Source: an uncultured Bacteroidota bacterium (lineage in GTDB: Bacteria > Bacteroidota > Rhodothermia > Rhodothermales > Salinibacteraceae). From it: DNA of 47,802 bases. The stretch is taken from positions 1 through 47,802 of the forward strand of contig CAJXLV010000030.1 in the NCBI GenBank assembly GCA_913056185.1, read 5' to 3'. The notes under the pieces are model-generated. The model worked only from the letters and a program-made list of their open reading frames with translations, ran no database searches and was not told where the DNA came from. A program made the position numbers and the translations under genes. This document shows positions 16,943 through 45,382 of the stretch, piece after piece (the first letter of the stretch is position 1; each line of letters starts with the position of its first letter).

Positions 16943-17263
16943 GCGCGGGGGTGTGGCCCTGCGGACAGGCATGTGTGCCCCGCCGCCCTTGAAGAGAAGA
17001 AGGCGGCGGGCGCTTGGAATCCAGCGGCGTTGCGCCTCGCGTCTGTTTCCGCATCCCGTGCCCTCTCCCCACTGGACGAGGGCGATGAGTCCTCGACCGC
17101 GCCCTCCCGCCCGGCTGTGCGTGGGCTCCGAGAACATCGATCTTGGGGAGTGTGCGGGGGCGTGTCCGGCGGGTCGCCTACGGGCCCTGGCGGTCGAAGG
17201 GCAGCTCCCCCTCACCTTCATCGGGCGCATCCCTCCATACGTCCTGGTCACCTTCACGACGCT
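16943..17263. other. Intergenic region between the two secreted protease genes
   Basis: About 320 bp without a supported gene. A strong hairpin lies 36 bp after the protease stop: CCCGCCGCC (16979-16987) pairs with GGCGGCGGG (17002-17010) across a 14-nt loop, but no U-tract follows, so it is at best a weak terminator. The frame of the next gene is open upstream but lacks coding features before its signal peptide. Confidence 0.5.
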
Positions 17264-30022: not shown

Positions 30023-31159
30023 ATGCCCTCTACTGTGCCGCCGCGGGTTGTGCACGTGACGACGGTGCACCAGCCGTTCGATCCGCGCATCTTCTACAAG
30101 CAGCTCGCCTCCCTCCGCGACGCAGGGTTCGACGCGCATCTCATCGCGCCCCACGACCGCGACGAGCAGGAGCACGGCATCCCGATCCACGCCCTTCCCC
30201 CTCCCGAGACGCGGGCGCACCGCCTCTTGCTCCAACCGCAGGTCTTCCGGACGGCCCGGTCGCTCGACGCCGCGTTGTACCAGGTGCACGATCCCGAGCT
30301 CCTGCCCCTCGCCTTCCTGTTGAAGGCGGCAACAGGAGCGCGCATCGTCTACGACATGCACGAGAACTACCGGTCGAAGGGCGCGCTGCTGGGGCGGGCG
30401 CTTCGGGCGCTGGAGCGGTGGGCATTCCGGTGGCTCGACCACGTGCTGATCGCCGAGGAGAGCTATCGGTCGATTGTGGACGCGCACGCGGTGCCGCACG
30501 CGTACATCGCCAATTACTTCCGTCCCATTGGGGACGACGCACCGGTTGGGAACGGAGCGATTCGCGAGACGCCGACCCGGCTCCTCTACACCGGCACCCT
30601 CGCCAAGAGCCGGGGCCTGCGGACGATGGTCGAACTGGCTGCTGAGGTCCGACGGACCAGCCGTCCAGAGACCCTCGACCTGGTGGGCGTGTGTCACCAC
30701 CGCGACCAGCGCGCCTGGGCCGAGGAGCGGATCCGGACGGAGGATCTCGGCCGCGTCATCGAACGGGTGGGGTGGGACACGTACGTCCCGCCCTTGGCCA
30801 TGCCGCCGCACTACCGCCGTGCGGACGTCGGGCTGGCCCTCTTCGAGCCCCATTCCAATTATCGCTGTTCCCTCCCCACAAAGTTCTACGAGTACCTCTA
30901 CTACGGCCTGCCCATCATTTGCTCGGACGTTCCGCTGTGGCGGCGCTTCGTGGAGCAGCATCAGTGCGGGGCCGTCGTGCCGCCGGGCGAACCGGAGGCC
31001 GTCCTCGCTGTGCTCGACGACTGGCAGGCCCATCCGGATCAGTATCGGCAGTGCGCAGAGAACGCCCGAGCCGCCGCCCCGCAGTACCGGTGGGAGGCGA
31101 TGGGGCACCGTCTTGTGGACCGGTACCGGTCGCTCCTGGGGGCAGCCCGCGTCGCGTAG
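30023..31159 (+). CDS. Family 4 glycosyltransferase
   Basis: A GT-B fold glycosyltransferase. The 378-residue product starts RVVHVTTVHQPFDPRIFYKQ, has YQVHDPELLPLAFLLK and VYDMHENY in the N-terminal half, LLYTGTLAKSRGL at the start of the donor-binding half, and ends with PTKFYEYLYYGLPIICSD, which holds the Glu of the GT4 EX7E region. ATG at 30023 gives a conventional start; the frame is open for 41 more codons upstream. A sulfotransferase gene follows 177 bp later on the same strand. Donor and acceptor unknown. Confidence 0.9.
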   Translation: MPSTVPPRVVHVTTVHQPFDPRIFYKQLASLRDAGFDAHLIAPHDRDEQEHGIPIHALPPPETRAHRLLLQPQVFRTARSLDAALYQVHDPELLPLAFLLKAATGARIVYDMHENYRSKGALLGRALRALERWAFRWLDHVLIAEESYRSIVDAHAVPHAYIANYFRPIGDDAPVGNGAIRETPTRLLYTGTLAKSRGLRTMVELAAEVRRTSRPETLDLVGVCHHRDQRAWAEERIRTEDLGRVIERVGWDTYVPPLAMPPHYRRADVGLALFEPHSNYRCSLPTKFYEYLYYGLPIICSDVPLWRRFVEQHQCGAVVPPGEPEAVLAVLDDWQAHPDQYRQCAENARAAAPQYRWEAMGHRLVDRYRSLLGAARVA

Positions 31160-31336: not shown

Positions 31337-32155
31337 ATGCTCCCTACGTTTCTCGTCATCGGGGCCATGAAGGCCGGAACGACCAGCTTGTACTACTACC
31401 TCGCGGAGCACCCCGAGATTGGGATGTCGCGACGGAAGGAGACAGACTTTTTCATGTACGGCCACGGCAACTGGGCCCGCGGACGAGACTGGTATCGCCG
31501 ACAGTTTCCGGCCGATGCGCCAGTGCGCGGGGAGTGCTCGCCCAACTACACGAAGCGGCATCTGTTCGGGGGGGTGCCGGAGCGCATTGAAGCGGTGTGC
31601 CCGTCGGTAAAGCTTATCTACATGGTGCGGGACCCGATCGAGCGAACGGTGTCGCACTACCAGGCCAGCTGTCAGGCAGACCGGGAGGAGCGCCCGTTCG
31701 CCGCCGCGGTCGCCGACGCAGACGAGAGCAACTACGTCCTGACCAGCTGCTACCATACGCAGCTTCAGCCGTACCTGCATCACTTCCCGAAGGAGCGCCT
31801 GTTGGTGGTGTCCACCGAAGAGATGACGGCGGACCCGCAGGGCACGATGCGCACGCTGTATCGCTTCCTGGGCGTCGACGCGTCCTTCCAGAATGAGCAG
31901 GTAGGGCGGTCGTTCAACGTCTCGGCTGAGAAGAAACAACACAGCCCCTGGGTGCGCTGGGTCTCCGACTGGGTGCCGCAAGCCCTCAAGGATCGTCTGC
32001 GCCCGCACCTGTCGCTGAACTGGCTGCCGGGCACGGCGGTGCCCCGGCCGGCCCCATCCCCCGAGGTGGAAGCGCACCTGACGGCGGTCTTTCGCCCGGA
32101 GGTGGAGGCGCTCCGGACGCTGACGGGGCGCGACTTTGCAGGGTGGTGCGTGTGA
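31337..32155 (+). CDS. PAPS-dependent sulfotransferase
   Basis: Transfers sulfate from PAPS to an acceptor, here probably a glycan. The 272-residue product has the 5'-phosphosulfate loop VIGAMKAGTTSLYYYL (residues 7-22) at the N-terminus and the 3'-phosphate site YMVRDPIERTVSHY (Arg98, Ser106). Its spacing and length fit the heparan-sulfotransferase-like family (Sulfotransfer_1). ATG at 31337 is close to the P-loop as usual. The PAPS-making genes cysD and cysNC lie 12 kb away in the same window. It converges with the C25 peptidase gene. Confidence 0.92.
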   Translation: MLPTFLVIGAMKAGTTSLYYYLAEHPEIGMSRRKETDFFMYGHGNWARGRDWYRRQFPADAPVRGECSPNYTKRHLFGGVPERIEAVCPSVKLIYMVRDPIERTVSHYQASCQADREERPFAAAVADADESNYVLTSCYHTQLQPYLHHFPKERLLVVSTEEMTADPQGTMRTLYRFLGVDASFQNEQVGRSFNVSAEKKQHSPWVRWVSDWVPQALKDRLRPHLSLNWLPGTAVPRPAPSPEVEAHLTAVFRPEVEALRTLTGRDFAGWCV

Positions 32156-32162
32156 GGGCCGC

Positions 32163-32227
32163 GGCACGAGGAGGCGGCGTAGGGACGCGGCGTAGAGGCA
32201 CGGCGTAGGGACACGGCGCGGGGCAGC
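32163..32227. repeat. 13-bp tandem repeat, five units (H)
   Basis: Units start at 32163, 32176, 32189, 32202 and 32215, each 13 bp. Three share GGCGTAG at their start; the first and last are diverged. The array fills the gap between the convergent sulfotransferase and C25 peptidase genes. Confidence 0.75.
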
Positions 32228-32287
32228 ACCCCCCTGCGACCACTTGGGGCCCTCGTCCGGGGTTGCCCATGCCTTCGAAGACAGGGA

Positions 32288-35200
32288 TCAGCGAATCACG
32301 CTGATTTTTTCGATGTCGCCCCGAAAGGTCGTTTCTGCTCCCTCAATGCGGACGCGGTAGAGGTAGACGCCGGTCGCCACCCGGTCGCCGTCCTGGTCGC
32401 GTCCGTTCCAGCGCAGGGTATTCCAGCCCACGCGCAGTGGGGCGTCCAGGTGACGTTCTCCGAGCTCGCGCACAAGCCGTCCGGATAGTGTGTAGATGCG
32501 CAGCGAAAAGTCGTCGAGGCGTTCGTTCGCGCCCCCTTCCACCCGAAAGGCAAACGTGGTGCGGGCATTCATCGGGTTGGGATAAGGGTACACGTCGCGA
32601 ATGACCTGCTCTTGCTGCACCCGAAAGCTGCCCTGATACGGCTCCACCGAATTGCCACGGGCATCTTCGGCCTCCACCTTCAGGGTATAGGTCGAGTCGC
32701 GGAGGGGCAGGTCCGGCTCGTACAACAGCCGCAGCGGCTCGGAGCTGCCGGAATCGGGGGGGACAAACGTAAGGGCCTCGCTGGTGAAGGGGATGCGCTC
32801 AAAGAGGGAGCCGAGGGAGGGGGTGCGTACGGGGGCGCCTCCTTTGAGGAAGACCTCGACCTGGCTGGTATCGGTGAGGGGAAGAGGAGAGTTGGCATCG
32901 TCGACCAAAATCTCGAGGGTTGGCTCCGTGGACACAAACGGCAGGCGGGGCGCCTGGAGGCCGACGTTGTCCGGGGTGGCAGGCACTTCGCGGCCGTTGG
33001 CGAGCACGCGCACGGAGGGCGGGGTGTCGTCGCGAGTCACGTACAGGTTGCGGACTGCCGTATTGTTGCTGGGGAGGCGCTCGGGCGGCCCGTCGGCCTG
33101 TGCCTCGGCGGTGAGGACATTGCCCCCGGCCAGCTCCGTGCTCGACAGCGAGAACGTGGTGGTGTCGCGCCCGCCCTCCGGGGCCAGGGCCGAGAGGGTG
33201 TCGGACAGTACGGGGACGGTGGCATTGGCCGCATTGCGCACAGACACGCGAAGGCGGACGGGGGCGCTGGCCACGGGGCCGAAGTTGACCACCGAGACGG
33301 GGGCGGAAACGGAGGCGCCCTGGCGGACGGTATCGGGGAGGGCGGCCAGGCCCGCGGGGTCCACCGCCAGCTCGGGCACGCCCGTGTGCGAGACGCTCCA
33401 CTGCCTGAGCTGCGGCGCGGTGCGCGCAGTGGAGTCCGACAGGGTGGCGCGGAGGTAGAGGTAGGGGTGCGCGGCCGCATCAATGGCGGAGAGGTCCCGC
33501 GTGCCGGAAGGGCCGTTCAGGTTGTCAATGAGCACCGTCGAGTCCGCCGCGAGCACCTGGAGGGCGATGCGGTCACTGGGGTCGGGGGCAGTGCCGCTCC
33601 ATTGAAGAGTGTCCCACGCGCTGGCCGGCCCGATGCGTGTGGAGCGCGTCGTGCCGGAGGCATGCGAAAACCGTATGCGCTCCTGCTGGCCAATCTGGTT
33701 CGTATCGGCGCGGGCTCGTTCGACCGTAGCGGCGGGCTGCCCCTTGCGGGCCTTCAGGGTCCAGAGGTCGTTGTACGTCAACGTATCGATGGCCGTGGAG
33801 TGCGGGGCGTCCGCGGTCGAGCTGGAGCCGAGGGTTTTGAAAAGCGACTTGACGGCGTCGGGGATGTCCGCGGGGCCGCCCTGGCGGGCCAGGTGCCGGG
33901 TGCGCACAAAGACGTAGTCGCCCTGCTGGGCCGTGTTGTCCAGGAAGGCCTCCAGGGCATCGATGGCCGCCTGCCCATCCCCTACGTCATCTTCGTACTG
34001 GTCTTGCAGGTCGTAGGTGGGAAAGGACTCGCTGCCCTTCACGGTGCCGGTGCGCCCGTCCATCACCAGCACCCCAAAGCCAAACTGCAGGTACTCATAA
34101 TTTGCTGTGCCGTCGAGGGTAAAGCCGTGGACGAATGATGCGTTGCCCCGATTGGAGCGGATGCGGACGTTGCGTGGGAAGGTGCCAAAGGCCCAGTCGG
34201 AGGCCGTCCGTTGTAGGCGTGTGCGCGGATTGGCTTCAAACAGGCGGCGTTGCTGCAGCCACGTGGAGGGCGGTCGGGAGGGGGCGACCGTAAACTGAGC
34301 CTCCCTCCAGGCCGCCGCGTCGGCCTCGGCCAGGCGAGCGCGCCAGTAGTAGGTCTGGTTTGGGGACAGGGGGGACGGCGCCCACGTGCCCCGCAGGCCG
34401 CTTACGTCCCGCCGTACCTCGCGGCGGGCAGGGGACGAGAAGTCGGGCACGGTGTCGAGCTGAAGCACGACGGGCACCGCACGCGGGGAGGCGCCGGAGA
34501 TGCCAAATGTGAGGCGGGGGCGCTCCGTAGCCACCGTTCCGAAGGGGGGCGGGGTGAGGAGCGAGACGCCGGTGTCGAACACGACCTGGGTGCGCTCGGC
34601 GGTGTTGTCGGTCTCGTTGCCCTCGTCGTACTCGTTCTCGAGGTCGACAGCGACGCGGAACGTGTTGGGGCCGATTGTGCGCTCGTCCAGATCGAAGGAG
34701 AAAGAGAGGGTTTTTTCGAGCCGGAAGCGATCGAGGCGACGGGTGCGCCGGGTCACCGTGCCGTCCGGCTGTTGCCAAGTGAGGCGGGCCGTAACGCTGT
34801 CCCGCGGAATGAGGCCGCGGTTTTGGAGGCGCACCTCCACCGTAAGTTCGTCGGAGGGAACGGGCGTGGCGGGCGTCGTGGAGATGAGGCTGGGCGCGAC
34901 GTGGAAATCCGGGCGTGTGGGCAGGGCAATGTTTGTGGCCGGATCGCCCAGGAGGCCGTACTGCAGAAGGTGCTTTACGTAAAAGTCGCTGTTCCCAAAG
35001 TCATCATTGATCTCCGCTTTGGCCTCCTGGATGGCGGTGCCGAGCACGCGCATGGTGTCGACGAAGACCCGCTCCACGAGCGCATCGTTGATGCGGGCCG
35101 ACGGGATGAGGTTGCCGAGGGCCGATTCGCCGAAGTGCGCGATGCCGCCGTTGAGGGCGCCGTCGCGCGGGGTGCCATCGGGCCGCACGGAGCCGACCAC

Positions 35201-37321
35201 GATCTGCTCACCGAGCGACGGGGCGCTTTTTTGCTCGAAGCGCCCGCCGGCGAACGAGCCGGTGCGGCAGCCGAGAGAGATGGCGATGGGCAGGCGCCCG
35301 GAATTTTGCCATTCGGCCGGTGGGTCCGTCACGATTTCCCAGGTTTGAGCGGCGGAGTGGCCGAAGTAGTTGAGCCAGCCCGCGCCCTCTTCGAGGTCGA
35401 CGGCGAGAGAGTCCTGGAAGCTGGCATCGAGGGCATCGTTCACCTTCTTGTAATACTGAAGCGTATCGGCTCCGGTGTGCACCGGCACCGGGTCGCCGTC
35501 GATGTTGGCCACCGTATCCGCCGCAATTTCTCCCCAGCGGTCGGAGTAGAACTGAAGCTGGTTTTGCTCGCTCGCGTTGGTGCCACCAGCGAGGAGGAGC
35601 ATGCGCTTTGTCCAGCGGGCGGGCGGGGCGGTTTCGTACGCCTGCAGCTTGTCCACAAAGAGCTCGCCCTGCGCCACGGACCGCACCGGGATGCGCCCCA
35701 CGGCCAGCAGCTCCGACCAGTCGTTGGGCCCGTCGGCCTGCATGGCAAACCAGCCGTCCGAGGGCGCGTAGCCGAACGAGGGGACGCTCCACTCCGGAGA
35801 GAGCGTGTCGACCGAGCCGTCGCGGATCGGATACTGTGCGTCGGCAAAGATGGAGAGGAAGCGGGGAGCGGGGCTCCAGGCCTGCGTCGCCCGCACGAAG
35901 CGCCGGATGGCAATGGGAGTGGGGCGGCCGTAGTCAAATTCGTCGAAGACGTTCTGCACAAGGGCGACCTCCACCTGGTAGCCGTCGTGCGACCGCCGGT
36001 GGGCCGCCAGCTGCTGGGCCGCGGGCAGCAGCGCCTCGGTGGTGAGGAGCACGTAGTCGGCCCCGTGGGCGGTTGGGGTGGACCAGTTGCTCGGGGCGTC
36101 GGGCTCGATGGTGGCAGGGCTTCGGTATCCACTGCTCCCAACGGCCCAAAAGGGGGTTCCCGCGGTGGACGGATTCGCCGAGACGAGCGCCGTATCGTCC
36201 TCGATGGCGGCACTGTAGAGACGGGCGTCTTTCGGGCTGTACACGCGCACCGAGTCGCCTGCGTGGCCGGTCAGGGCAAAGGTCTGGGCTCCGGTGGTGG
36301 GCGCTACGAACCGTTGTCGGTTGTTTTGTGCGGAGAGGGTTCGCGTGTAAACCGCTTCTGCCCAATCGAACAGTACGTAGTTGGGCGTGCTGGCGGGGGC
36401 GCGGCAGTTGCGCGCCTCCGAAAAGTTGTCGTTATAGGAAGTAAGGCGGAGCGTGAGGTCCGTGCCTGGGAGCCGCGACTGAGAAAGAGAGACCGCAGCG
36501 GTGGTGCGGGTTGCATTGCGCCACCGTACGGTGGTGAGTGGCTCAAAGGCCTGGCCGCCCCCGGGTTGTTGGAGTTTGCCCTCCACCTCTACGCGGTGGC
36601 ACGAGTTGGTGGCAGCGTCGAAGCGGAGCCGGAGGGTGAGGGAATCATCGGTGGCCGTGCGCCGCCCCACCGGCAGGGCGTACGTGTCCGAGATGGGGGC
36701 GGTGTCGTTGTGGCGAAACCGGTGCCAGTAGTAGCCTTCCGACCGGGTGTAGAGCGGATTGCCCGTCTGCCCGGAGCGGCCGAAGTAGTAGTGCCGATCT
36801 TCTTCAATGCGGGCCGTATCGCGAAGGGCTGTGGTGGGGGGAGCCGTGGGCGCGGGGCCCTCGTCGTAGCGACGGCCGTCGGGCCCGCCCCACGTCATCC
36901 AGTAGTGGGTGGTGTCGCTGTAGAGGCTGCGGGCCGTGCTACTGGGCGCGTCCGCCTCCGCGTAGGCCCAGGCCTCGTCCGTGCCCCGGTTGCGGCGGCC
37001 TACGAACGCGATCGTGTCGGTGGGGTCGAGCGTGCCGTCCGCGGCGCCCTGTACCTCGATGGGCACCTCCGTGCCGTTCTCAATCAGCCGGAGCGTCCGG
37101 GGCTCGATGTCCGACAGGCGGGTGCCGCCCGGCAGGGCGGACTGAAGGCTGCTGGCCGAGACGCGGTAGACGCCGTCGCGGGTGACGTTGATTTTGACGT
37201 GAGGGGCGCCGGGCTCGTACCACGAGGCGTCGTAGCCGTCGCTGGGCTGTGCTGCCGCGGTAGGGCACAGCAGGACGCCGCACAGGAGAGCAATCCAGAA
37301 GGAGCGGGGGGAGGAGCGCAT
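32288..37321 (-). CDS. C25 gingipain/PorU-like peptidase with ILEI-like domain
   Basis: A 1677-residue exported protein. Signal peptide to TAAAQ (25); a PorU-like N-terminal region (WYEPGAPHVKINVTRDGVYRV); C25 catalytic domain (about 420-800) with His655 (NYFGHSA) and Cys685 (ISLGCRTGSF), spaced as in gingipains; two CARDB-like beta domains (about 815-915 and 1330-1440); between them a segment (about 1045-1170) resembling ILEI/FAM3 domains (GFGVLVMDGRTGTV, GDYVFVRTRHLA, AVKSLFKTLGSSS); and a C-terminal type IX sorting domain (YPYPNPMNARTTFAF to the end). PorU is the T9SS sortase that cleaves substrates and joins them to A-LPS; this protein is longer than usual PorU, so a paralogous substrate protease is the alternative. 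It lies 42 bp after a GT4 gene on the same strand. Confidence 0.88.
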   Translation of the reverse strand: MRSSPRSFWIALLCGVLLCPTAAAQPSDGYDASWYEPGAPHVKINVTRDGVYRVSASSLQSALPGGTRLSDIEPRTLRLIENGTEVPIEVQGAADGTLDPTDTIAFVGRRNRGTDEAWAYAEADAPSSTARSLYSDTTHYWMTWGGPDGRRYDEGPAPTAPPTTALRDTARIEEDRHYYFGRSGQTGNPLYTRSEGYYWHRFRHNDTAPISDTYALPVGRRTATDDSLTLRLRFDAATNSCHRVEVEGKLQQPGGGQAFEPLTTVRWRNATRTTAAVSLSQSRLPGTDLTLRLTSYNDNFSEARNCRAPASTPNYVLFDWAEAVYTRTLSAQNNRQRFVAPTTGAQTFALTGHAGDSVRVYSPKDARLYSAAIEDDTALVSANPSTAGTPFWAVGSSGYRSPATIEPDAPSNWSTPTAHGADYVLLTTEALLPAAQQLAAHRRSHDGYQVEVALVQNVFDEFDYGRPTPIAIRRFVRATQAWSPAPRFLSIFADAQYPIRDGSVDTLSPEWSVPSFGYAPSDGWFAMQADGPNDWSELLAVGRIPVRSVAQGELFVDKLQAYETAPPARWTKRMLLLAGGTNASEQNQLQFYSDRWGEIAADTVANIDGDPVPVHTGADTLQYYKKVNDALDASFQDSLAVDLEEGAGWLNYFGHSAAQTWEIVTDPPAEWQNSGRLPIAISLGCRTGSFAGGRFEQKSAPSLGEQIVVGSVRPDGTPRDGALNGGIAHFGESALGNLIPSARINDALVERVFVDTMRVLGTAIQEAKAEINDDFGNSDFYVKHLLQYGLLGDPATNIALPTRPDFHVAPSLISTTPATPVPSDELTVEVRLQNRGLIPRDSVTARLTWQQPDGTVTRRTRRLDRFRLEKTLSFSFDLDERTIGPNTFRVAVDLENEYDEGNETDNTAERTQVVFDTGVSLLTPPPFGTVATERPRLTFGISGASPRAVPVVLQLDTVPDFSSPARREVRRDVSGLRGTWAPSPLSPNQTYYWRARLAEADAAAWREAQFTVAPSRPPSTWLQQRRLFEANPRTRLQRTASDWAFGTFPRNVRIRSNRGNASFVHGFTLDGTANYEYLQFGFGVLVMDGRTGTVKGSESFPTYDLQDQYEDDVGDGQAAIDALEAFLDNTAQQGDYVFVRTRHLARQGGPADIPDAVKSLFKTLGSSSTADAPHSTAIDTLTYNDLWTLKARKGQPAATVERARADTNQIGQQERIRFSHASGTTRSTRIGPASAWDTLQWSGTAPDPSDRIALQVLAADSTVLIDNLNGPSGTRDLSAIDAAAHPYLYLRATLSDSTARTAPQLRQWSVSHTGVPELAVDPAGLAALPDTVRQGASVSAPVSVVNFGPVASAPVRLRVSVRNAANATVPVLSDTLSALAPEGGRDTTTFSLSSTELAGGNVLTAEAQADGPPERLPSNNTAVRNLYVTRDDTPPSVRVLANGREVPATPDNVGLQAPRLPFVSTEPTLEILVDDANSPLPLTDTSQVEVFLKGGAPVRTPSLGSLFERIPFTSEALTFVPPDSGSSEPLRLLYEPDLPLRDSTYTLKVEAEDARGNSVEPYQGSFRVQQEQVIRDVYPYPNPMNARTTFAFRVEGGANERLDDFSLRIYTLSGRLVRELGERHLDAPLRVGWNTLRWNGRDQDGDRVATGVYLYRVRIEGAETTFRGDIEKISVIR

Positions 37322-37363
37322 AGAAGGCCAGAACGAAGGGCTGCGACGACGTTGGGGGCATGG

Positions 37364-38536
37364 TCAGGCGTCCGCGCGTGCCCGACGGTAGAATGATCGC
37401 GTGCGCTGAACGAAAGGTTCCGGTCCGTACTCGTCCAGCACGTAGGCCCGAATCCGGTCCGGATCGTATTCCGACCATCGATCTCGCATTGTGCGGAGGG
37501 CCTCGGCGAGCGCCGCTGGGGCATTGGGGGGCACGAGGCACCCTGTCGCCTCCGTGACAATGTCCTCGGGGCCGCCGCACCGCGTAGCCACCACGGGCAG
37601 GCCAGTTGCCATGGCTTCCACGAGTACCACCCCAAAGGTCTCGTGGCGACTGGCCAACACGAACGCGTGGGCGTTCCACAGCGCCTCGCGGACCCCCCTG
37701 CGTGGCTGAGCGCCCAGAAACGAGACCTTCGCCCCCAGCCCCAGCCGGTCCGCCTGCCGAGTGAGGGCAGCGCGCCGGGGTCCGTCTCCCACAATCGTCA
37801 GCAGCACGTCCGGCGCCCCGTTGAAGGCAGCCCGAAACGCCTCCAGCAGAGCCGAGAGGTTTTTTCGGGCATTTAGGTGGGCCACGGTGACGAGCCGAAA
37901 CGGAGGCGGGGAGGGGCGCGGACGGTCGGGCAGGGAAAACTGGGCGGGACAGACGGGGTTCGGGATCACATCGATGGAGGCAGGGTCCGCGAGTGCCCGG
38001 CGGGCCATCGTATCTCGCAGGGCCGTGCTGACCGCCGCAAGGCCGGCCGCGTGCCGGACGCCCTCTTCCACCAGGGGCCACCGCCAGGCGGTCACCGCAT
38101 CGCGCTGCAGCCCCGAGTAGTGCTCCGTAAGCACGTACGGAACGGCGAGAGCGTCCCCAATCCGTGCGGCAGCGGCCCCGGCCCAGCGGGCGCTGTGTGC
38201 GTGAATCAGGTCGGGGACGCCGCGGCGGTCGGCGTAGCGACGGGCCAGGCGCACCGCACTGCGAATGCGGAGACGCACGCCGGGCGGAAAGCGCCACCAC
38301 ACGTTCCACCCGTGGCGGCGAAGGGTTGGGAGGGCCTCCCCGGTCGTCCACTCCGTCTGAAAGTGATTTCGGCGGAGGGCCGCCACGGAGAGGCGACGCA
38401 GGCTTTGGTGTTCGGGGTAGACCACGCCCATCGTCAGGCCGTGTTCGTGGAGCATCCGGGCCTGCTCAGCGAAGTAGATGCCCTGCCGCGGGGCCTCCGT
38501 CGTTGGGTACCAGGAGGGAACCACGAGGACGTGCAT
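37364..38536 (-). CDS. Family 4 glycosyltransferase
   Basis: The 390-residue product has a GT-B layout: VLVVPSWYPTTEAPRQGIYF at the start, LIHAHSARWAG, the acceptor-domain TEHYSG, VTVAHLNARKNLSALLEAF entering the donor domain, and HETFGVVLVEAMATGLPVVA with the GT4 glutamates. The start MHVLVV at 38536 is standard. It lies between the dehydratase and C25 peptidase genes, same strand, with repeat element C just upstream. Donor and acceptor unknown. Confidence 0.92.
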   Translation of the reverse strand: MHVLVVPSWYPTTEAPRQGIYFAEQARMLHEHGLTMGVVYPEHQSLRRLSVAALRRNHFQTEWTTGEALPTLRRHGWNVWWRFPPGVRLRIRSAVRLARRYADRRGVPDLIHAHSARWAGAAAARIGDALAVPYVLTEHYSGLQRDAVTAWRWPLVEEGVRHAAGLAAVSTALRDTMARRALADPASIDVIPNPVCPAQFSLPDRPRPSPPPFRLVTVAHLNARKNLSALLEAFRAAFNGAPDVLLTIVGDGPRRAALTRQADRLGLGAKVSFLGAQPRRGVREALWNAHAFVLASRHETFGVVLVEAMATGLPVVATRCGGPEDIVTEATGCLVPPNAPAALAEALRTMRDRWSEYDPDRIRAYVLDEYGPEPFVQRTRSFYRRARADA

Positions 38537-38544
38537 GGGAAGAT

Positions 38545-38641
38545 TGATGCGTGAAAAGTGATGCCTGAGAGATGGTGCGTGCGGGGGATGCTCTTCAACC
38601 CACGCGCTCGGTTCGAATCACGATTTACGGATCACGCATCA
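38545..38641. repeat. TGATGCGTGA inverted element (C)
   Basis: TGATGCGTGA (38545-38554) has a perfect inverted copy TCACGCATCA (38632-38641). Between them are further GTGATGC and ATCACG words. The final TCA is the minus-strand TGA stop of the dehydratase gene. It shares both arm words with element B. Confidence 0.8.
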
Positions 38642-40225
38642 TCCACGGTTGATCGAAGAAGGGGGCGGCGAGGGAGCGTCCGCCCTTTCACGGCCGTCAG
38701 GCTGTGTGTTGAGCAGCAGCGTTCGCAGCTGCTCGCGCGAGGCGCGGGTGGGGCCCGATGCCGACTGGAGGCGCTGCAGAAACGCGTCCAGCTGCGTGCG
38801 CGAGAATGGAGAGGGGCCGCCAAGCCCGAGGATGCTCGGATGGGAGGTGTCGTGGAGCGTCTCCGCGGTGCGCACCAGCTCCTCTCGGAGCTTCTCGCCC
38901 GGGCGTCGCCCCACATACTCGATCATGGCCTTGGGGTCGGCATGCGGGTACCACCGGGTGATCAGTTGCTCGGCCAGCCACTGGATGCGGATCGGGTCGC
39001 CCATCCGGAAGATATAGGCCGGATGTTCGTCCAGCAACAGGGTGTGCAGGATGAGCCCGCAGGCCTCCTCCGGGCTCATGAAGTAGCGCTCCATGTCGGG
39101 GTGTGTGACCGGAAGCGGCTCTCCGGCGGCGAGTTTTTTTTCGAACCGGGGGACCACGCTGCCGTGCGACCCAAAGACATTGCCGAAGCGGACCGTGGTG
39201 CAGTGGGGCGGAGCGTCGGCGGTGCGCACGTACCACTCCGCCAACCGTTTGGTGGCACCCATCACGTTGACCGGGCGCACCGCCTTGTCGGTGGAGACAA
39301 AGACGAACCGGTCTACGCTGTGCGTTGCGCAGAGATGGAGCAGATGGACGGTGGCCATGGTATTGTTGCGGAACGCCTCCGCTGGGTGGCGCTCCATAAG
39401 GGGGACGTGCTTGTAGGCCGCTGCGTGGAGCACCACATCCGGCTGCAGGCGGCGGAAGAGGTCGTCCATGAGGGCGGCATCGCGCACGTCGGCAATGCAA
39501 AACTCGAGGTCGCCGTCGTAAGAGAGGGGACGGACCGCCGTTTCGAGGCGGTAGAGGTGATGCTCGCTCACGTCCACCAGTGCCAGCCGAAACGGGTTGA
39601 GGGCAACGAGCTGGCGGCTCAGCTCAGCACCGATGGACCCTCCGGCGCCGGTGACCAGCACCGTGCGGTCCGACAGCGTGTGGCGCAGAGAATCGCGATC
39701 GATGTCTGCGGGCGGACGGGGGACGAGGTCGCTGAGGTGGACGGCCGGGGTAGTTTGGCCGAAGGACTCCGTGCGGGGGGGAGGGGAAAGGGATTCCAGG
39801 AGGTAGCGGGCGAGTGCACGCAGGCCCAGCACGCCCACCAGGGCCACGAGGCCGAGCACAGCCATCACGCCCCGGGGCGGGACGTCCGCCGGGGCGATTG
39901 CATAGCTCAAAAGAATGGACGTTGCCCAGGCCCCAACCAGCCACAGGCCGACCCGCAGAAACGCAGACAGGTGCATGAGGCGGGGCGACTGGCGGTAGAG
40001 GCCACTGGCTGCCAGCGCGAGGCCGTGAACACCCACCGCAAGAACGGACGCAGTGCCCCACTCCGTCGTATGAGGCAGCGCCCACTGCCCGAGACGAATG
40101 CGGTAGCCCAGCAGGAGCCCCCCGTAGAGCACGAAGAGATCCGGCCCTGCCAGCAAGAGAGACAGTCGTCCCCGCCTTCTGAGCCAAGAAGCAGCGCTGC
40201 GCACGGCTGTCGAAAGCGAGGACAT
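38639..40225 (-). CDS. UDP-sugar 4,6-dehydratase, PglF/WbpM type, short form
   Basis: Probably converts UDP-GlcNAc to the 4-keto-6-deoxy sugar, the first step of bacillosamine-type synthesis. The 528-residue product has four N-terminal membrane helices (about 25-140), then the SDR domain: TGAGGSIGAE (192-201), AAAYKHVPLME, STDKAV (311-316) and VMGATK (321-326), where Met replaces the usual catalytic Tyr as in WbpM and PglF. Normally about 120 residues of a CoA-binding-like Rossmann domain lie between helices and SDR; here only about 45 residues do. The ATG at 40225 starts MSSLSTAVRS. Next genes on the strand are GT4s. Confidence 0.9.
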   Translation of the reverse strand: MSSLSTAVRSAASWLRRRGRLSLLLAGPDLFVLYGGLLLGYRIRLGQWALPHTTEWGTASVLAVGVHGLALAASGLYRQSPRLMHLSAFLRVGLWLVGAWATSILLSYAIAPADVPPRGVMAVLGLVALVGVLGLRALARYLLESLSPPPRTESFGQTTPAVHLSDLVPRPPADIDRDSLRHTLSDRTVLVTGAGGSIGAELSRQLVALNPFRLALVDVSEHHLYRLETAVRPLSYDGDLEFCIADVRDAALMDDLFRRLQPDVVLHAAAYKHVPLMERHPAEAFRNNTMATVHLLHLCATHSVDRFVFVSTDKAVRPVNVMGATKRLAEWYVRTADAPPHCTTVRFGNVFGSHGSVVPRFEKKLAAGEPLPVTHPDMERYFMSPEEACGLILHTLLLDEHPAYIFRMGDPIRIQWLAEQLITRWYPHADPKAMIEYVGRRPGEKLREELVRTAETLHDTSHPSILGLGGPSPFSRTQLDAFLQRLQSASGPTRASREQLRTLLLNTQPDGRERADAPSPPPSSINRG

Positions 40226-40275
40226 GAGGCAGAAAGGGTAGGCAAAAGAATACCAGTTGGGCGGTGGCGTGCACG

Positions 40276-41478
40276 TCAGGCGGTCGCAGCGGTGCGCTCG
40301 ATCAGCGCAGCGTACCGGTCCATGAGGCGCGAGCGGTCGAACCGTCGGTGAGCGACAGTTCGAGCGGCACGGCCCGCGGCCGCGAGTGACGGGGGCGATG
40401 CAAGGATTGCGTGCAGCGCACTGGCAAGGTGCCCGGGGGACTCGGGCGGCACGAACCATCCGCAGTCGTGCTCTTTCACAAACCGCTTCGTCCACCCGGG
40501 GTTCGTCACCACCACGGGGGTGCCGGTGGCGAGGCTGTCGAAGAACTTGCCGGGGGCATTGGCGGCCAGCACCGGGCGATCGAGGAAGGAGACGAGCGAG
40601 AGGTCGGCGCGTGCGAACAGGGCGAGCGTCTTCGGGTGGGGGAGCGGAGGGAGCCGTCGAATCGCGGTGTGCTGCTGCGCCGCACGCTGTACCGTAGAGG
40701 CATGATAGCCATCGCCCGCGAAGGCCACAAGCACGTCTGAGCGCCGGGCAAGGAGGCGCCGGGCCGCCGCCACGAGTGTAGGAAGAGCGTTGGCCCGGCC
40801 GAAGGAGCCGGCGTAAAGCACCAGAAAGCGGCGGTCGAGGGCGAAGCGTTCTTCGATTTCGGTTTGCGCCTCCACGCCCACGTCGCCGAGGAGGTCGAAG
40901 TCGGTCCCGTACTCGATCGTGCGGACAGCCGTAGACGGGGCCCGTGCGCGAACATGCCGTTCCATATCGGGCGAGAGCGTGACCACCTGCGCTGCGCTCC
41001 GGTACAGCGCCGCTTCGGCCCACCGCAGGAGCGTGTGCAGGCCATAGTCCGGCACTGCGCCCATCTGGATGGGGAAGGCGGGCCAGAGGTCGCGCACCTC
41101 AAAGACCCAGGGAATGCCGCGAAGACGCGCCACCGCCCCGGCCGCCGCGGCGGCCGTTAGGGGCGTCGACGAACCCACGATGAGGTCGGGGCGGGGCATC
41201 TGTAGGCCGTGCCGGAGGGCACGGGCGGCGTATTGAAAAAAAGACGCCAATCGTTCTGGGGCCGACATCGAATTGTCATAGGGCACGTCGAAGCGCACAA
41301 GCTCCACGCCCGGCGGCGCCCACGGAAAGCGGTGCGCCTGTCGCGTTTCCTCCCACGCCCGGGTGGTCACCACCGTCACGTCGTGGTCCCGTCCCAGCCG
41401 GCGCGCCAGTGCGTAGGGCCGCGCCGCGGTGGGGCAGTCGGGCGTGTGGTAATGTTGGAGGAAGAGGGCAATACGCAC
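40276..41478 (-). CDS. Family 4 glycosyltransferase, WbuB-like
   Basis: The 400-residue product begins VRIALFLQHYHTPDCPTAAR and contains VTVVTTRAWEETRQ, VFEVRDLWPAFPIQMG, FLVLYAGSFGRANALPTLV and APGKFFDSLATGTPVVVTNPG, typical of GT4 enzymes acting on lipid-linked acetamido sugars (WbuB/fucosamine type). GTG at 41478 was chosen because the upstream frame is not conserved. It lies 50 bp upstream of the dehydratase gene on its strand and 56 bp after the acetyltransferase. Substrate by analogy only. Confidence 0.9.
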   Translation of the reverse strand: MRIALFLQHYHTPDCPTAARPYALARRLGRDHDVTVVTTRAWEETRQAHRFPWAPPGVELVRFDVPYDNSMSAPERLASFFQYAARALRHGLQMPRPDLIVGSSTPLTAAAAAGAVARLRGIPWVFEVRDLWPAFPIQMGAVPDYGLHTLLRWAEAALYRSAAQVVTLSPDMERHVRARAPSTAVRTIEYGTDFDLLGDVGVEAQTEIEERFALDRRFLVLYAGSFGRANALPTLVAAARRLLARRSDVLVAFAGDGYHASTVQRAAQQHTAIRRLPPLPHPKTLALFARADLSLVSFLDRPVLAANAPGKFFDSLATGTPVVVTNPGWTKRFVKEHDCGWFVPPESPGHLASALHAILASPPSLAAAGRAARTVAHRRFDRSRLMDRYAALIERTAATA

Positions 41479-41534
41479 AGGATGCGCAGGAGCCGGGGAA
41501 GGGCAGGACAGGTGCGGAGACGGGCCGGGCGGGC

Positions 41535-42176
41535 CTACGACTGGGGACGAGCCGGCGTCCCGACGGCGGTGCAGTGGGGCGGCAGGTCGTCTGTAACCAC
41601 CGCGCCAGCCCCGACGGTTGTATGCGCGCCGATCTGTACGCCGGGGAGCACAACGGCTCCGGTTCCCAGCGTGACCCCGTCCGCAAGATGAACGGCCCCG
41701 GAGACGTGCACGCCAGGATGCAGCGTGACAAACGCCCCGAGCACGCTGTCGTGCCCGATCGTACAATTGAGGTTGAGAAGGGCGTGCGGCCCGACCTCGA
41801 ACTGAACAGTTGAGGCCACCCCACGACACACGATGGCCCCCGGGGCCACCTCCGCGGTGCGGTGCAGAGACACGGACGGGTGCACGAGGGAGGTAGCACG
41901 CGGGGCGGACGGCCGGAGCGTCTCGGCGATGTGGCGGCGGGCCGTGCCGTTCCCAACGGCAATGACAAAGCGCAGGTCTGCCTGTTGGGCCAACCAGTGG
42001 ACGTCGCCCAGCACAGAATATCCCATCACCGTGTCTCCGTGGCGCGATGGGTCATCGTCCACAAATCCGGCGAGCGCCCCCGAGGGAGGCGGGGGGTGAA
42101 GGGCTTCTACCAGGGCCGCCACTTCCCGGCCAAGCCCCCCGGCTCCAACGATCACGAGAGAGGGACGATCAGGCAT
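41535..42176 (-). CDS. PglD/NeuD-type sugar O- or N-acetyltransferase
   Basis: Likely acetylates the 4-amino group of a UDP-amino sugar, the third step of bacillosamine synthesis. The 213-residue product has an N-terminal nucleotide-sugar-binding fold (LVIVGAGGLGREVAALVEAL), then left-handed beta-helix hexapeptide repeats with the catalytic-type His in NCTIGHDSVLG, ending VVTDDLPPHCTAVGTPARP. The start ATG at 42176 overlaps the end of the phosphoglycosyl transferase gene by 8 bp, so the two are translationally coupled. Confidence 0.92.
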   Translation of the reverse strand: MPDRPSLVIVGAGGLGREVAALVEALHPPPPSGALAGFVDDDPSRHGDTVMGYSVLGDVHWLAQQADLRFVIAVGNGTARRHIAETLRPSAPRATSLVHPSVSLHRTAEVAPGAIVCRGVASTVQFEVGPHALLNLNCTIGHDSVLGAFVTLHPGVHVSGAVHLADGVTLGTGAVVLPGVQIGAHTTVGAGAVVTDDLPPHCTAVGTPARPQS

Positions 42177-42798
42177 CGGGGGAGGGGGGCGTGGAGGGAG
42201 TAGAGAACGACGGGTTCTGGCCGTCGGGGCCGTAGACGCCTGTGCCACGAATCAGAACGACCGGCGTGCGGAGCAAAATGCGGAGGTCGAGCCAGACGCT
42301 CCAGTTGCGCACGTACCACACGTCCAGGTCGATCCGCTGGGGCCATGAGAGGGCGTTGCGCCCGTGGATCTGCGCCCAGCCGGTGAGGCCCGGCGGCACC
42401 TGGAGGCGTGTCTGCTCGTGGGGGCCGTACTGGGCCACCTGTGTCGGCAGCGTAGGGCGGGGGCCGACGAGGCTCATCTCGCCGCGCAGGACATTCCACA
42501 GCTGCGGCACTTCGTCGAGCGCCCATCGTCGCAGGATTGCCCCAACGCGTGTCGTGTGGGCGGCGGGGCGCGTCGGGGCTGCCGGGGGGCGCGTCAGCGT
42601 ACGGAACTTGATAATGCGGAACGGCGCTCCCTCGCATCCCGCCCGCGTCTGCGTGAAGAACAGTGGTCGCCCGTCGTCCAGCCAGATACAGACCGCCACG
42701 AGGGCGAGCACGGGAGCCAGAGCGACCAGCAGCCCCGTCGCTCCCACGAGGTCGAGGAGGCGTTTGGCCGTAGAACGGGCGCAGTCGGAACCGAGCAT
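42169..42798 (-). CDS. Phosphoglycosyl transferase, PglC type
   Basis: A monotopic membrane enzyme that transfers phosphosugar from a UDP-sugar to undecaprenyl phosphate, starting glycan assembly. The 209-residue product has the re-entrant helix after KRLLDLVGATGLLVALAPVL, then RPLFFTQTRAG, FRIIKFRTL, the catalytic Asp-Glu in WALDEVPQLWNVLRGEMS, VGPRPTLP and PGLTGWAQIHGRN. Length fits the small PglC form, without the extra N-terminal domains of WbaP. It begins 5 bp after the aminotransferase stop and overlaps the acetyltransferase start. Confidence 0.94.
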   Translation of the reverse strand: MLGSDCARSTAKRLLDLVGATGLLVALAPVLALVAVCIWLDDGRPLFFTQTRAGCEGAPFRIIKFRTLTRPPAAPTRPAAHTTRVGAILRRWALDEVPQLWNVLRGEMSLVGPRPTLPTQVAQYGPHEQTRLQVPPGLTGWAQIHGRNALSWPQRIDLDVWYVRNWSVWLDLRILLRTPVVLIRGTGVYGPDGQNPSFSTPSTPPSPDA

Positions 42799-42803
42799 GG
42801 CTG

Positions 42804-43958
42804 TTAGCGACGGGGGAGGGAGGGGAGCGCCTCGGTGAGTGCGTGGGCCACGCGGTCCACGTCCGCGCGGGTCATCGAGCCATAGAACGGCAGCGCGAGG
42901 GTCCGTGCCGAGACAGACTCGCACCCCGGAAAGTCGCCCGGCGAGAAGCCAAACCGCTCCCGGTAGTACGGCTGCAGATGGATGGCGGGAAAGTACGGCG
43001 CGCAGCCGATGCCTGCCTCCTGGAGGCGGCCCAGGAGGGCCTCCCGGGCCGACCGAGCAAAATGATCGCGCAGTCGGACGACATACACAAACCAACTCCG
43101 CTGAGCATCTGTGGGGCGGGCGGGGAGCACGAGGGCGTCGGAGAGCGGAGCCAGGGCCTCCCGGTACAGGTCCGCGACGGCGGCGCGGCGGTGGAGCAGC
43201 GCATCGAGGCGGTCGAGCTGGGCCACCCCGAGTGCGGCCGACATCTCGTCGAGCCGGTAGTTGTACCCGAGGCGGTCGTGCTGCATGCGACCGGAGGCGT
43301 GCGGGGAGCGTCCCTGGTTGCGGAGGGCGCGGCAGCGGCGGGCCAGAGCGTCATCGTCGGTGGTGATGCAGCCGCCCTCGCCCGTCGTGATCTGTTTGTT
43401 CGGGTAGAACCCAAAGCTGGCGGCGTCTCCCCAGGCTCCGATGGGCGTATCCTGCACGAAGGCCCCAATCGCCTCGCAGGCGTCGTCGATGAGCGCCAGG
43501 CCGTGCGTGTCCGCCAGGTCGGTGAGCGTGGGCCAGTCGGCCGGCACGCCGAACACGTCGACCGCGAGGAGGGCCTCCGTCTTTGGCCCAATCGCGTCTT
43601 CCACGCGGTTGGCATCGAGGTTGTACGTCGAGGGATCAATGTCCACGAAGCGAGGCCGGAGGTTTTCGTACAGCAGCGCGTTGGAGGAGGCCACGAAGCT
43701 GAACGGGGTGGTGATCACCTCGGCGCCCTCTGGCAGACCGAGCGCCCGCACGATGCAGTGGAGCGCGCCCGTGCCGCTGCTCACCGCCACGGCGTGTTCG
43801 GTGCCGCACCGGGCCGCCATGGCATCCTCGAAGGCTGCCAGGTAGGGCCCTCGGGACAACTGCTGCGACTGGAGTACGGCGTTTACGTGCGAGCGCTCGG
43901 CGTCTGTGAGGCTGGGGCGGGCCAGCGGCAGGGAATCGTCTGCGGAGGGGGATGGCAT
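42804..43958 (-). CDS. DegT/DnrJ/EryC1 (PglE-type) sugar aminotransferase
   Basis: A PLP enzyme that aminates the 4-keto group of a UDP-sugar, the second step of bacillosamine-type synthesis. The 384-residue product starts LPLARPSLTDAERSHVN, has AVSSGTGALHCIVRAL, DDACEAIGAF, the PLP lysine in FGFYPNKQITTGEGG, and GYNYRLDEMSAALGVAQLDRL. The ATG at 43958 begins MPSPSADDS. It is the first gene of the minus-strand series that runs to the C25 peptidase, and it is divergent from cysD. Confidence 0.95.
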   Translation of the reverse strand: MPSPSADDSLPLARPSLTDAERSHVNAVLQSQQLSRGPYLAAFEDAMAARCGTEHAVAVSSGTGALHCIVRALGLPEGAEVITTPFSFVASSNALLYENLRPRFVDIDPSTYNLDANRVEDAIGPKTEALLAVDVFGVPADWPTLTDLADTHGLALIDDACEAIGAFVQDTPIGAWGDAASFGFYPNKQITTGEGGCITTDDDALARRCRALRNQGRSPHASGRMQHDRLGYNYRLDEMSAALGVAQLDRLDALLHRRAAVADLYREALAPLSDALVLPARPTDAQRSWFVYVVRLRDHFARSAREALLGRLQEAGIGCAPYFPAIHLQPYYRERFGFSPGDFPGCESVSARTLALPFYGSMTRADVDRVAHALTEALPSLPRR

Positions 43959-44470
43959 GGGCGCGCGGGACAGGGGGCGAGAATGGGCATGGCTGTCTCC
44001 CGGTTCATCGAGGCGTTTCAGGGCGGTCGGGGCATCGAGCTTCGGCAGCACGGGCCCTGGTAACGTAGGAAGGAAGCAGGGAAAGTGGAAACCGCGGGGC
44101 GATCGGTCAGAACATCGGACCGGGCCCGTCGTGCGGGCTGTGCGGGGAGCGTCCCGAAGCATACGGACGGGAAGGGGGCGGCCTTGGTCGCGAGACGATG
44201 TGAAGATTGGTCGATCCCCGAACGCGCTCCGCATTTGTGGAGGGAAAAACGAGCAGCGCCGGGAACAGTCGTTGTTTTTCTTAATGCCGTACCCGAAGTT
44301 CACGCACCTTTCAGCCTCCATTGGTGACATCTCCCAGGCTGCACCGTCTGCATGTGCCCACGCCCTGCTGGAGGGGCGGACCCTCACGGGGGGCATTGTA
44401 GTCTCATCTTGTTGCAGTCCGGCGGGCTCGGTTCCATCGTGACTCCTGCTCAACCTCTTTGTTCTGTGCT
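43959..44470. other. 512-bp divergent intergenic region (glycan operon / cysD)
   Basis: The longest gap in the window. No gene is supported on either strand. It has an AT-rich patch around 44245-44285 including GTTGTTTTTCTTAATG, likely within promoter territory. Both the aminotransferase and the PAPS-synthesis genes start here, so shared control is possible. Confidence 0.5.
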
Positions 44471-45382
44471 ATGACCGCTTCGAGACGAACCTCTGAGCAT
44501 CTCAACTGGCTGGAATCGGAAGCCATCCATGTGATGCGAGAGACCGTCGCCCAGTTCGACAATCCAGTGCTCATGTTCAGTGGGGGAAAGGACTCGTTGA
44601 CCATGGTGCACCTGGCCCGCAAGGCCTTCCATCCGGCCAACGTGCCGTTTCCGATCCTGCACGTGGACACGGGGCACAACTTCCCGGAGACCATTAAATT
44701 CCGGGACGACCTGATGGAGCGGCACGGCCTTAACCTGATCGTAGGAAGTGTCGAAGAGACCATTGCCTCCGGCCGCGCGAAAGAAGAGCAGGGCCCGGAT
44801 GCGAGCCGCAACCGGCTGCAAATTGTAACCCTGCTCGACACGATTGAGGAGCACGGGTTTGATGCGGCCCTCGGCGGGGCGCGCCGCGACGAGGAGAAGG
44901 CCCGTGCCAAGGAGCGCTTCTTTTCGCACCGCGACCGGTTTGGGAACTGGGACCCAAAGAACCAGCGCCCGGAGCTGTGGTCTCTCTACAACGGCCGGAG
45001 CCGGAAGGGGGAGCACTTCCGCGTCTTTCCGCTTAGCAACTGGACGGAGCTGGACGTGTGGCAGTACATTCGGCAAGAGGGCATCGAGATTCCGAGCCTG
45101 TACCTCGCCCACGAGCGAACGATGTTCGAGCGCGACGGGGTGCTCCTGCCCAAATCGCCCTACAACGACCTCCGCGACGGCGAGAAGTACGTGGAGAAGA
45201 TGGTCCGCTTCCGCACGATCGGAGACATGACGTGCACCGGCGCCGTGGAGTCCACAGCGACGACGCTGGACGAGGTGGTGGCGGAGGTGGCGACGACGCA
45301 GCGGGCGGAGCGCGGAGCGCGGGCGGACGACCAGCGCGCCGAGGCGGCCATGGAGGAGCGGAAGCGGGACGGGTATTTTTAG
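44471..45382 (+). CDS. cysD: Sulfate adenylyltransferase subunit 2
   Basis: With CysN it makes APS from sulfate and ATP. The 303-residue product has the PP-loop FSGGKDSLTMVHLARKAF (residues 36-53), HVDTGHNFPETI, LGGARRDEEKARAKER, and the long C-terminal part with FPLSNWTELDVWQYI and MTCTGAVESTA, all typical of CysD. The ATG at 44471 was chosen over a TTG four codons upstream. cysNC follows 101 bp later. No cysH, cysI or cysJ lies nearby. Confidence 0.97.
   Translation: MTASRRTSEHLNWLESEAIHVMRETVAQFDNPVLMFSGGKDSLTMVHLARKAFHPANVPFPILHVDTGHNFPETIKFRDDLMERHGLNLIVGSVEETIASGRAKEEQGPDASRNRLQIVTLLDTIEEHGFDAALGGARRDEEKARAKERFFSHRDRFGNWDPKNQRPELWSLYNGRSRKGEHFRVFPLSNWTELDVWQYIRQEGIEIPSLYLAHERTMFERDGVLLPKSPYNDLRDGEKYVEKMVRFRTIGDMTCTGAVESTATTLDEVVAEVATTQRAERGARADDQRAEAAMEERKRDGYF

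Follow-up and report, generated by a model that had tools for sequence, protein, structure and literature searches.

Why a gene for a peptidase of family C25 should close a run of genes for the synthesis of an amino-deoxy sugar is the question raised by a 47,802-nucleotide stretch of DNA, here termed the window, from an uncultured Bacteroidota bacterium of the family Salinibacteraceae (class Rhodothermia, order Rhodothermales). This stretch makes up contig 30 of a genome of 3.27 Mb, in 79 contigs, that is 93.9% complete. A first-pass annotation had described in it seven consecutive minus-strand genes, separated by gaps of -8 to 102 bp and ending in a 1677-residue C25 protein, and had proposed that they make the glycan to which a PorU-like sortase attaches proteins secreted by the type IX system; the genes, their order, the gaps and the length of the protein were all found as described. 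The directon is read here, with moderate confidence, as a glycan-plus-sortase cassette, in which the operon would make an amino-deoxy-sugar linker or surface glycan and the C25 protein, a relative of PorU2, would join type IX cargo to it. Functional coupling is the best reading because one block combines amino-deoxysugar enzymes with an initiating transferase, a pair of glycosyltransferases and a C25 protein of the sortase type. The observations behind it are the gene families, a catalytic pair, conserved gene order, co-occurrence, joint absence from one genome, the absence of canonical PorU from the Salinibacteraceae genomes sampled, and the presence of SprA, PorV and sorting tails. The genes of the block and the domains of its last product are as follows:

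42804-43958, minus strand: DegT-family sugar 4-aminotransferase, first gene of the block (PF01041, E 3e-115; TIGR03588, PseC, 316 bits, below cut-off; nearest solved structures perosamine synthase and ArnB)
42169-42798, minus strand: small PglC-type phosphoglycosyl transferase (PGT), 209 residues (nearest solved structure 8e37, diacetylbacillosaminyl-1-phosphate transferase, E 2e-39; TIGR03025, 247 bits, below cut-off)
41535-42176, minus strand: PglD/NeuD-type sugar N-acyltransferase (TIGR03570, 188 bits, above cut-off; solved relatives VioB, perosamine N-acetyltransferase and a pilin glycosylation protein)
40276-41478, minus strand: GT4 glycosyltransferase a, WcaI-like, GTG start (PF13579/PF00534; PRK10307, 85 bits, below cut-off)
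38639-40225, minus strand: short PglF-like 4,6-dehydratase, 528 residues (nearest solved structure 5bju, WlaL, E 6e-61, with an STDK stretch in common)
37364-38536, minus strand: GT4 glycosyltransferase b (PF00534, E 5e-34)
32288-37321, minus strand: PorU2-like type IX sortase candidate, C25 peptidase, 1677 residues (NF052324, PorU2, 379.7 bits, cut-off 450; NF033707, PorU, 241.1 bits, cut-off 420)
34931-36055, minus strand: C25 catalytic domain of this protein, with His655 and Cys685 (PF01364; model matches gingipain R, 1cvr, and PorU, 6za2)
33710-34165, minus strand: FAM3/ILEI/POMGnT1-stem-like domain of the same protein (PF15711, 27.2 bits, cut-off 27; Foldseek; profile match to the POMGnT1 stem)
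32291-32644, minus strand, approximate start: its C-terminal type IX sorting-like domain (PorU model positions 963-1093, 64.6 bits; FlgD_ig, 20.6 bits, below cut-off; YPYPNPM conserved in the alignment)

From the first gene to the last, the intergenic gaps are 5, -8, 56, 50, 102 and 42 bp. As the flanking genes on both sides lie on the plus strand, the block forms a separate directon, and as the seven-gene arrangement recurs in many relatives, it goes beyond chance. Promoter scans were uninformative for or against a single transcript: sigma-70-like sites in 31900-44700 numbered 0, versus 0.7 in shuffled sequences, and the gap ahead of the C25 gene held no TANNTTTG site.

The description of the C25 protein as PorU-like stood in so far as it is a C25 peptidase that matches sortase models, but of the two models it is PorU2 that it matches better. 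The PorU2 model is covered over nearly its full length (positions 4-879 of 879), PorU is matched at both N-terminal and C-terminal parts, and neither cut-off is reached. For comparison, the PorU2 model gives 377-428 bits with three Rhodothermales relatives, 373 with an Ignavibacteria protein and 1049 with one from Algoriphagus, and a true PorU of the same order scores 994.5 bits with the PorU model. Judged by sequence, the paralogue family nearest to the gene is PorU2, although the scores lie below both curated cut-offs, and its identification as canonical PorU was rejected on these scores and on the porU-porV neighbourhood described below. PorU2 and PorV2 are already NCBIfam names, and curators are thus aware of the family; the name PorU2 was not met in the literature searched, in which coverage of subscription journals was poor.

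The C25 region of the window aligns with that of PorU (6za2), and an alignment of 46 PorU2 proteins, whose sources range from Rhodothermales to Ignavibacteria, shows the catalytic pair conserved in 45. A predicted model of residues 400-1400 (mean pLDDT 89, pTM 0.63) finds its best matches in gingipain R and PorU. The protein carries a sorting-type domain at its own C-terminus, which matches the C-terminus of 6za2 at just 12 bits. A homologue from an Ignavibacteriaceae genome (L165, 8527-12825) has Ser at both catalytic positions of the alignment and may be inactive.

A search of the source genome found the PorU2-like gene as its sole C25 peptidase, and with the PorU model there were, besides this gene, two weak matches, both to the C-terminal part of the model; another gene that would be the true PorU, which the first-pass annotation had named as evidence to look for, was not found. 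The wider distribution was surveyed with PF01364 in 195 genomes of the class Rhodothermia, and the C25 counts that follow are among the matches listed. Two main sorts of protein were present, one of ~1300-1450 residues scoring ~290-360 bits, to which the true PorU just mentioned belongs, and one of ~1560-1820 residues scoring ~200-240 bits; shorter frames lay mostly near contig ends, and a few genomes had further, weaker matches. The long sort was found in 15 of the 20 Salinibacteraceae genomes sampled, 14 by Pfam and one (G192) by protein search, the last as pieces on two contigs, and the canonical PorU sort in none of the 20. No C25 match was found in the other five, one of which is 99% complete and the rest 83-90%. 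In the other families sampled the PorU2-like paralogue coexists with a true PorU. Where both sorts were present (18 genomes), porV adjoins porU in 17, the remaining case being a 4.8 kb contig without porV; by comparison, all four Salinibacteraceae porV loci that were read had porV without porU, and no PorU match lay in the 16 kb around porV of the source genome (G000, contig C9). That genome nevertheless encodes SprA (1657 bits), PorV (298 bits) and 20 sorting-tail matches.

Comparison of gene order, as the first-pass annotation had suggested, showed the arrangement to be conserved in several Rhodothermales families. The sample comprised 35 stretches around long C25 genes in 33 genomes, several of them ending at contig edges. 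A dehydratase homologue lay upstream on the same strand in 16 of the 35, and in one more genome beside a C25 piece on another contig; where both genes were on one contig (21 genomes), the dehydratase was within 5 kb of the C25 gene and on the same strand in 18, and in three further genomes the two were on different contigs. The full order aminotransferase-PGT-acyltransferase-GT4-dehydratase-GT4-C25 was found in several Salinibacteraceae genera (L036, L044, L046 and L058), and the same order without the second GT4 gene in L041 and, in another family, in L049, where it holds down to 46% C25 identity; at 39% identity (L052) it was still present, with the acyltransferase undetected. Longimonas halophila KCTC 42399 (L101) likewise carries the complete order. 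All 14 Salinibacteraceae genomes with a long C25 gene besides that of the window had at least one polysaccharide gene nearby, which in one was a flippase alone.

Co-occurrence was assessed in the 94 Rhodothermales genomes present in both searches, after dropping 4 and 5 that were in one search alone, and a dehydratase was counted as of the window's short kind at 329 bits or more, the next match scoring 258. Four members of this set (G032, G053, G095 and G128) are frames of 378-395 residues with little or no membrane part. Such a dehydratase was present in 24 of 32 genomes with a long C25 gene versus 0 of 62 without, and by genus in 14 of 19 versus 0 of 21 (Fisher values 7e-16 and 5e-7, respectively, with phylogeny ignored). 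The block can also be absent as a whole. In a genome of the same genus (G026), manC, the trehalose-phosphate genes and cysD, which mark the two sides of the window's block, lie within one 20 kb stretch (C1, 745200-765199; L178), and no block gene was found in that stretch or in the next 20 kb; no C25 match and no window-kind dehydratase was found in this genome, which keeps SprA, PorV and 15 sorting-tail matches. The distances of C25 proteins and of their block neighbours correlate (r 0.55-0.93), a figure that comes without a control gene and is given no weight as a sign of coupling. Neither the gene linkage nor the absence of PorU from Salinibacteraceae was met in the literature searched, which covered titles and the starts of abstracts of the papers listed and few subscription journals.

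A matched control took 18 genomes with both paralogues (17 Rhodothermales and one of the class) and applied one set of 16 glycan queries (E<=1e-4) to the stretches around each paralogue. A glycan match was present in 15 of the 18 PorU2 stretches, 12 of them with one above 100 bits, versus none of the 18 canonical PorU stretches. The PorU2 stretches of G020, G053 and G095 had weak matches alone, and those of G084, G128 and G178 had none. A named collection gave 76 PorU2 loci, many of them from genomes already sampled. Its 22 nearest loci (L095-L116), assigned to Rhodothermales by title or similarity, had at least one glycan match in 21 cases and two in 20, a count in which Rhodothermales are favoured because the queries were taken from the window and from relatives; four Rhodothermales fragments were excluded from this count and from that for the loci outside the order, given below. 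One Ignavibacteriales PorU2 locus (L169, 5517-7245) has aminotransferase and PGT homologues upstream, and may be a separate case of the same linkage.

The likening of the sugar genes to PglF, PglE, PglD and PglC held for the dehydratase, the PGT and the family of the acyltransferase, and less clearly for the aminotransferase. For a bacillosamine-type pathway, the nearest relatives of the dehydratase and PGT fit, the acyltransferase falls in the NeuD/PglB/VioB family, and the aminotransferase is nearest perosamine synthase and ArnB. WlaL (5bju) is the PglF of Campylobacter, and WbpE/PorR of Porphyromonas gingivalis shares the DegT family of the aminotransferase. The dehydratase consists of a membrane part followed, from about residue 162, by the catalytic SDR domain, leaving little space for an intermediate Rossmann domain; the more distant matches in Rhodothermales are mostly open frames of ~640-690 residues, versus 528 in the window. 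The enzymes of the block are compatible with an undecaprenyl-linked 2,4-diamino-trideoxy sugar as their probable product. The acyltransferase was undetected in four of 14 genomes with a recovered aminotransferase, in two of which (L037 and L043) the aminotransferase and PGT genes are separated by one for a sulfotransferase; because the acyltransferase was undetected in some relatives, an unacylated 4-amine is possible.

In the proposed cassette, the dehydratase, aminotransferase and acyltransferase would generate a UDP-2-acetamido-4-amino(or acylamino)-2,4,6-trideoxyhexose, which the PglC-type transferase would load onto undecaprenyl phosphate and the two GT4 enzymes would extend, the flippase and export genes then carrying the glycan outward. 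At the cell surface PorU2, itself probably a type IX substrate, would trim the sorting tail off type IX cargo and join the new C-terminus, by a putative transpeptidation, to an amine of the glycan, perhaps the 4-amino group, either free or later amino-acylated. The block would be transcribed as one unit, and its clients may include two proteins encoded in the window. These, and the neighbouring genes with possible parts in glycan export, extension and sulfation, including the supply of 3'-phosphoadenosine 5'-phosphosulfate (PAPS), are as follows:

28268-29581, minus strand: Wzx-type flippase (PF01943, E 5e-12)
30023-31159, plus strand: GT4 glycosyltransferase c; in many relatives this gene converges with that for C25 (PF00534)
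31337-32155, plus strand: sulfotransferase, convergent neighbour (PF00685, E 5e-19)
44471-45382, plus strand: CysD-type sulfate adenylyltransferase subunit, divergent neighbour conserved in relatives (PF01507, PAPS_reduct, E 4e-47; named CysD by its position next to CysN)
45484-47403, plus strand: CysN-CysC-type protein for PAPS supply, neighbour conserved in relatives (GTP_EFTU and APS_kinase domains)
14078-16942, plus strand: possible client, subtilase (S8) with a type IX sorting tail (PF00082 and PF18962)
16973-19198, plus strand: possible client, fn3 protein with a type IX sorting tail (PF18962, E 3e-12)

Both possible clients had been put forward by the first-pass annotation as secreted proteases, and both have the tail; a protease domain is present in the first alone, no protease family being found in the second by Pfam at E<=0.001. 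Regarding the kind of glycan, the window has, besides the flippase and the sulfotransferase, a mannose-1-phosphate guanylyltransferase-type gene. Homologous regions encode Wzz/Wzc-type proteins (L049 and L060) and a polysaccharide export protein (L059), and also carry UDP-glucose dehydrogenase-type and epimerase/decarboxylase-type genes. The product is likely to be an exported, possibly sulfated polysaccharide of the lipopolysaccharide (LPS) or capsule kind. In several relatives sulfotransferase genes and the PAPS-supply pair flank or interrupt the block, which points to a sulfated glycan.

Known systems offer partial parallels. In P. gingivalis, cargo is reported to end on a 2-N-seryl, 3-N-acetylglucuronamide for which a Wbp/Vim origin is proposed, with a sugar aminotransferase (WbpE/PorR) and an N-acyltransferase giving an N-acyl amino sugar as would the enzymes of the block (PMC7468200); a further likeness is the dedicated initiating transferase, WbaP, which with glycosyltransferases is proposed to build the linker as a separate oligosaccharide on undecaprenyl diphosphate (PMC13086638). 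PorU of P. gingivalis shares the His-Cys sortase fold of C25. By contrast, the enzymes of the window would give a 4-amino-6-deoxy sugar rather than a 2,3-diamino uronic acid, and here the sugar genes lie in one directon with the sortase gene, which is PorU2-like and not porU; family scans found no Wbp/Vim uronic-acid enzymes among the seven genes, the genome beyond the block not having been searched for them. The linker of Prevotella intermedia is described as an N-alanyl deoxyhexose with a pathway unknown to date, from a source that notes variation in linking sugars and pathways among species and expects others to be found (PMC11969387). It thus resembles the proposed sugar in being an N-acylated amino-deoxy sugar at the end of cargo (PMC11969387), and differs, as compared by description, in its single N substituent where a 2,4-diamino sugar is expected here.

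The Campylobacter Pgl pathway (PglF/E/D/C, di-N-acetyl bacillosamine) is alike in that the nearest solved relatives of the dehydratase and PGT are WlaL and diacetylbacillosaminyl-phosphate transferase, and in the NeuD/PglB/VioB subfamily of the acyltransferase; it is unlike the block in the shortness of the dehydratase here, in the nearest relatives of the aminotransferase, and in the proposed use, which would be C-terminal joining rather than N-glycosylation. Exosortases are not known to be related to C25 enzymes. Even so, the exosortase/PEP-CTERM system likewise links a transpeptidase-like sorting enzyme with extracellular polysaccharide genes (PMC1569441), although for the C25 protein of the window the proposed substrate is type IX cargo at the cell surface. 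Finally, NCBIfam recognises PorU2 and PorV2 as putative type IX sorting proteins, and the source genome resembles their other hosts in its full-length PorU2 match and its PorV2-like gene, both below cut-off. The latter gene (best stretch 206 bits with NF052325, cut-off 325) lies on a different contig from PorU2, unlike other Bacteroidota loci such as that of Algoriphagus, where the gene before PorU2 is PorV2 by NCBIfam at 578 bits, and L152, where a PorV2-like gene lies 1.6 kb upstream. The source PorV2-like protein found a match (E<=1e-15) in 89 of 99 Rhodothermales genomes, many without a long C25 gene, and G162 and G192 have long C25 genes without such a match. The idea that PorU2 and PorV2 travel as a pair in Rhodothermales was thus unsupported, as PorV2-like presence does not track the long C25 gene.

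A possible contact with sugar is suggested by residues ~1018-1215 of the C25 protein, which form a domain in the predicted structure (pLDDT 87). The matches ranked 1-20 by Foldseek were all FAM3 proteins or POMGnT1, and a profile of 25 PorU2 proteins matched the POMGnT1 stem at E 1.5e-15. With the Pfam family ILEI the window's protein scores 27.2 bits, just over the cut-off, an Ignavibacteria PorU2 49.4 and another Rhodothermales PorU2 22.1, below cut-off; the search found none in an Algoriphagus PorU2, nor in any of three PorU proteins of the canonical sort. The POMGnT1 stem is reported to bind N-acetylglucosamine (GlcNAc) via Arg129, Asp179 and Arg207 (PMC9802357). When these residues were mapped onto the profile alignment by spacing, all three were kept in one of the 25 aligned PorU2 proteins (L120, 12944-13330). 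The domain was accordingly rejected as a proven GlcNAc binder, its fold being clear but the sugar-binding triad not conserved.

Several observations weigh against the cassette. The triad equivalents in the window are Phe, His and Asn, so that sugar binding by the ILEI-like domain is suggested by fold alone. A sugar acetylated at position 4 would present no free amine there, and family scans recognised no VimA/VimE-type gene among the seven of the block. The dehydratase is missing from 8 of the 32 genomes with a long C25 gene, and the coupling proposed by the first-pass annotation is overall partly supported. The five-gene unit of three Salinibacter genomes is ~18 kb from the C25 gene, in the same region but on the other strand; a spacing of ~18 kb is that seen in Salinibacter altiplanensis AN15. 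Outside Rhodothermales, 9 of 50 PorU2 loci had any glycan match and 2 had two or more; as PorU2 is there mostly without glycan neighbours, its dependence on this glycan is not general. In 13 of 25 compared loci outside the order (for instance L121, 8931-10007) it is a PorV2-like gene that directly precedes PorU2 on the same strand. Four of the Salinibacteraceae genomes without C25 were searched and keep SprA and 15-23 sorting-tail matches, from which it follows that the sortase is dispensable for having cargo.

Of the explanations that compete with the cassette, the one that survives best, although rather unlikely, is that PorU2 has replaced PorU as the family's general type IX signal peptidase or sortase, with ordinary LPS or water as the acceptor and the glycan operon a mere co-resident of an island gained or lost whole. 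This would suit the sampled family genomes, in which canonical PorU was not found while PorV and SprA remain, as well as the relative lacking the entire block and the scarcity of glycan neighbours around PorU2 beyond Rhodothermales; however, the linkage is also present in families with a true PorU elsewhere in the genome, and island transfer by itself leaves unexplained the position of the C25 gene, on the same strand and closely downstream, in 18 of 21 genomes. It is improbable that the C25 protein is instead a surface processing protease without transpeptidase activity, maturing surface proteins or enzymes dependent on the polysaccharide. True proteases, the gingipains, do belong to C25, gingipain R being the best fold match of the model, the scores fall under the curated cut-offs of both sortase models, and five of 20 family genomes lack C25, four of which, when searched, had kept sorting-tail proteins; against these stand the almost end-to-end match to the PorU2 model, the matches to both terminal parts of PorU, and the position of PorU2 elsewhere, directly behind PorV2-like genes. 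Least probable is that the operon is an ordinary extracellular polysaccharide or capsule initiation locus in which the C25 gene comes last through chance and vertical descent, which would account for the Wzz/Wzc-type, export, UDP-glucose dehydrogenase-type and sulfotransferase genes of homologous regions and for distance correlations expected of any vertically inherited genes, but not for a dehydratase absent from all 62 Rhodothermales genomes without a long C25 gene or for canonical PorU control stretches devoid of glycan genes.

With the cassette thus preferred, a more specific form of it can tentatively be put forward, namely that Rhodothermales possess an anchoring cassette combining a new type of linking sugar, a 2,4-diamino-2,4,6-trideoxyhexose with its 4-amine or an amino-acyl group as the nucleophile, with a dedicated PorU2. 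It would constitute a second type IX route beside PorU in the other families sampled and the sole one in Salinibacteraceae. Linking sugars of type IX cargo have been reported for three species, P. gingivalis, Tannerella forsythia and P. intermedia, and an operon in which candidate linking-sugar enzymes and an initiating transferase are found with a sortase-type protein is a specific case that can be tested in bacteria which are harmless and cultivable. The linkage also suggests a function to go with the name PorU2, and marks the Salinibacteraceae as a lineage in which PorU seems to have gone while PorV and the cargo stay.

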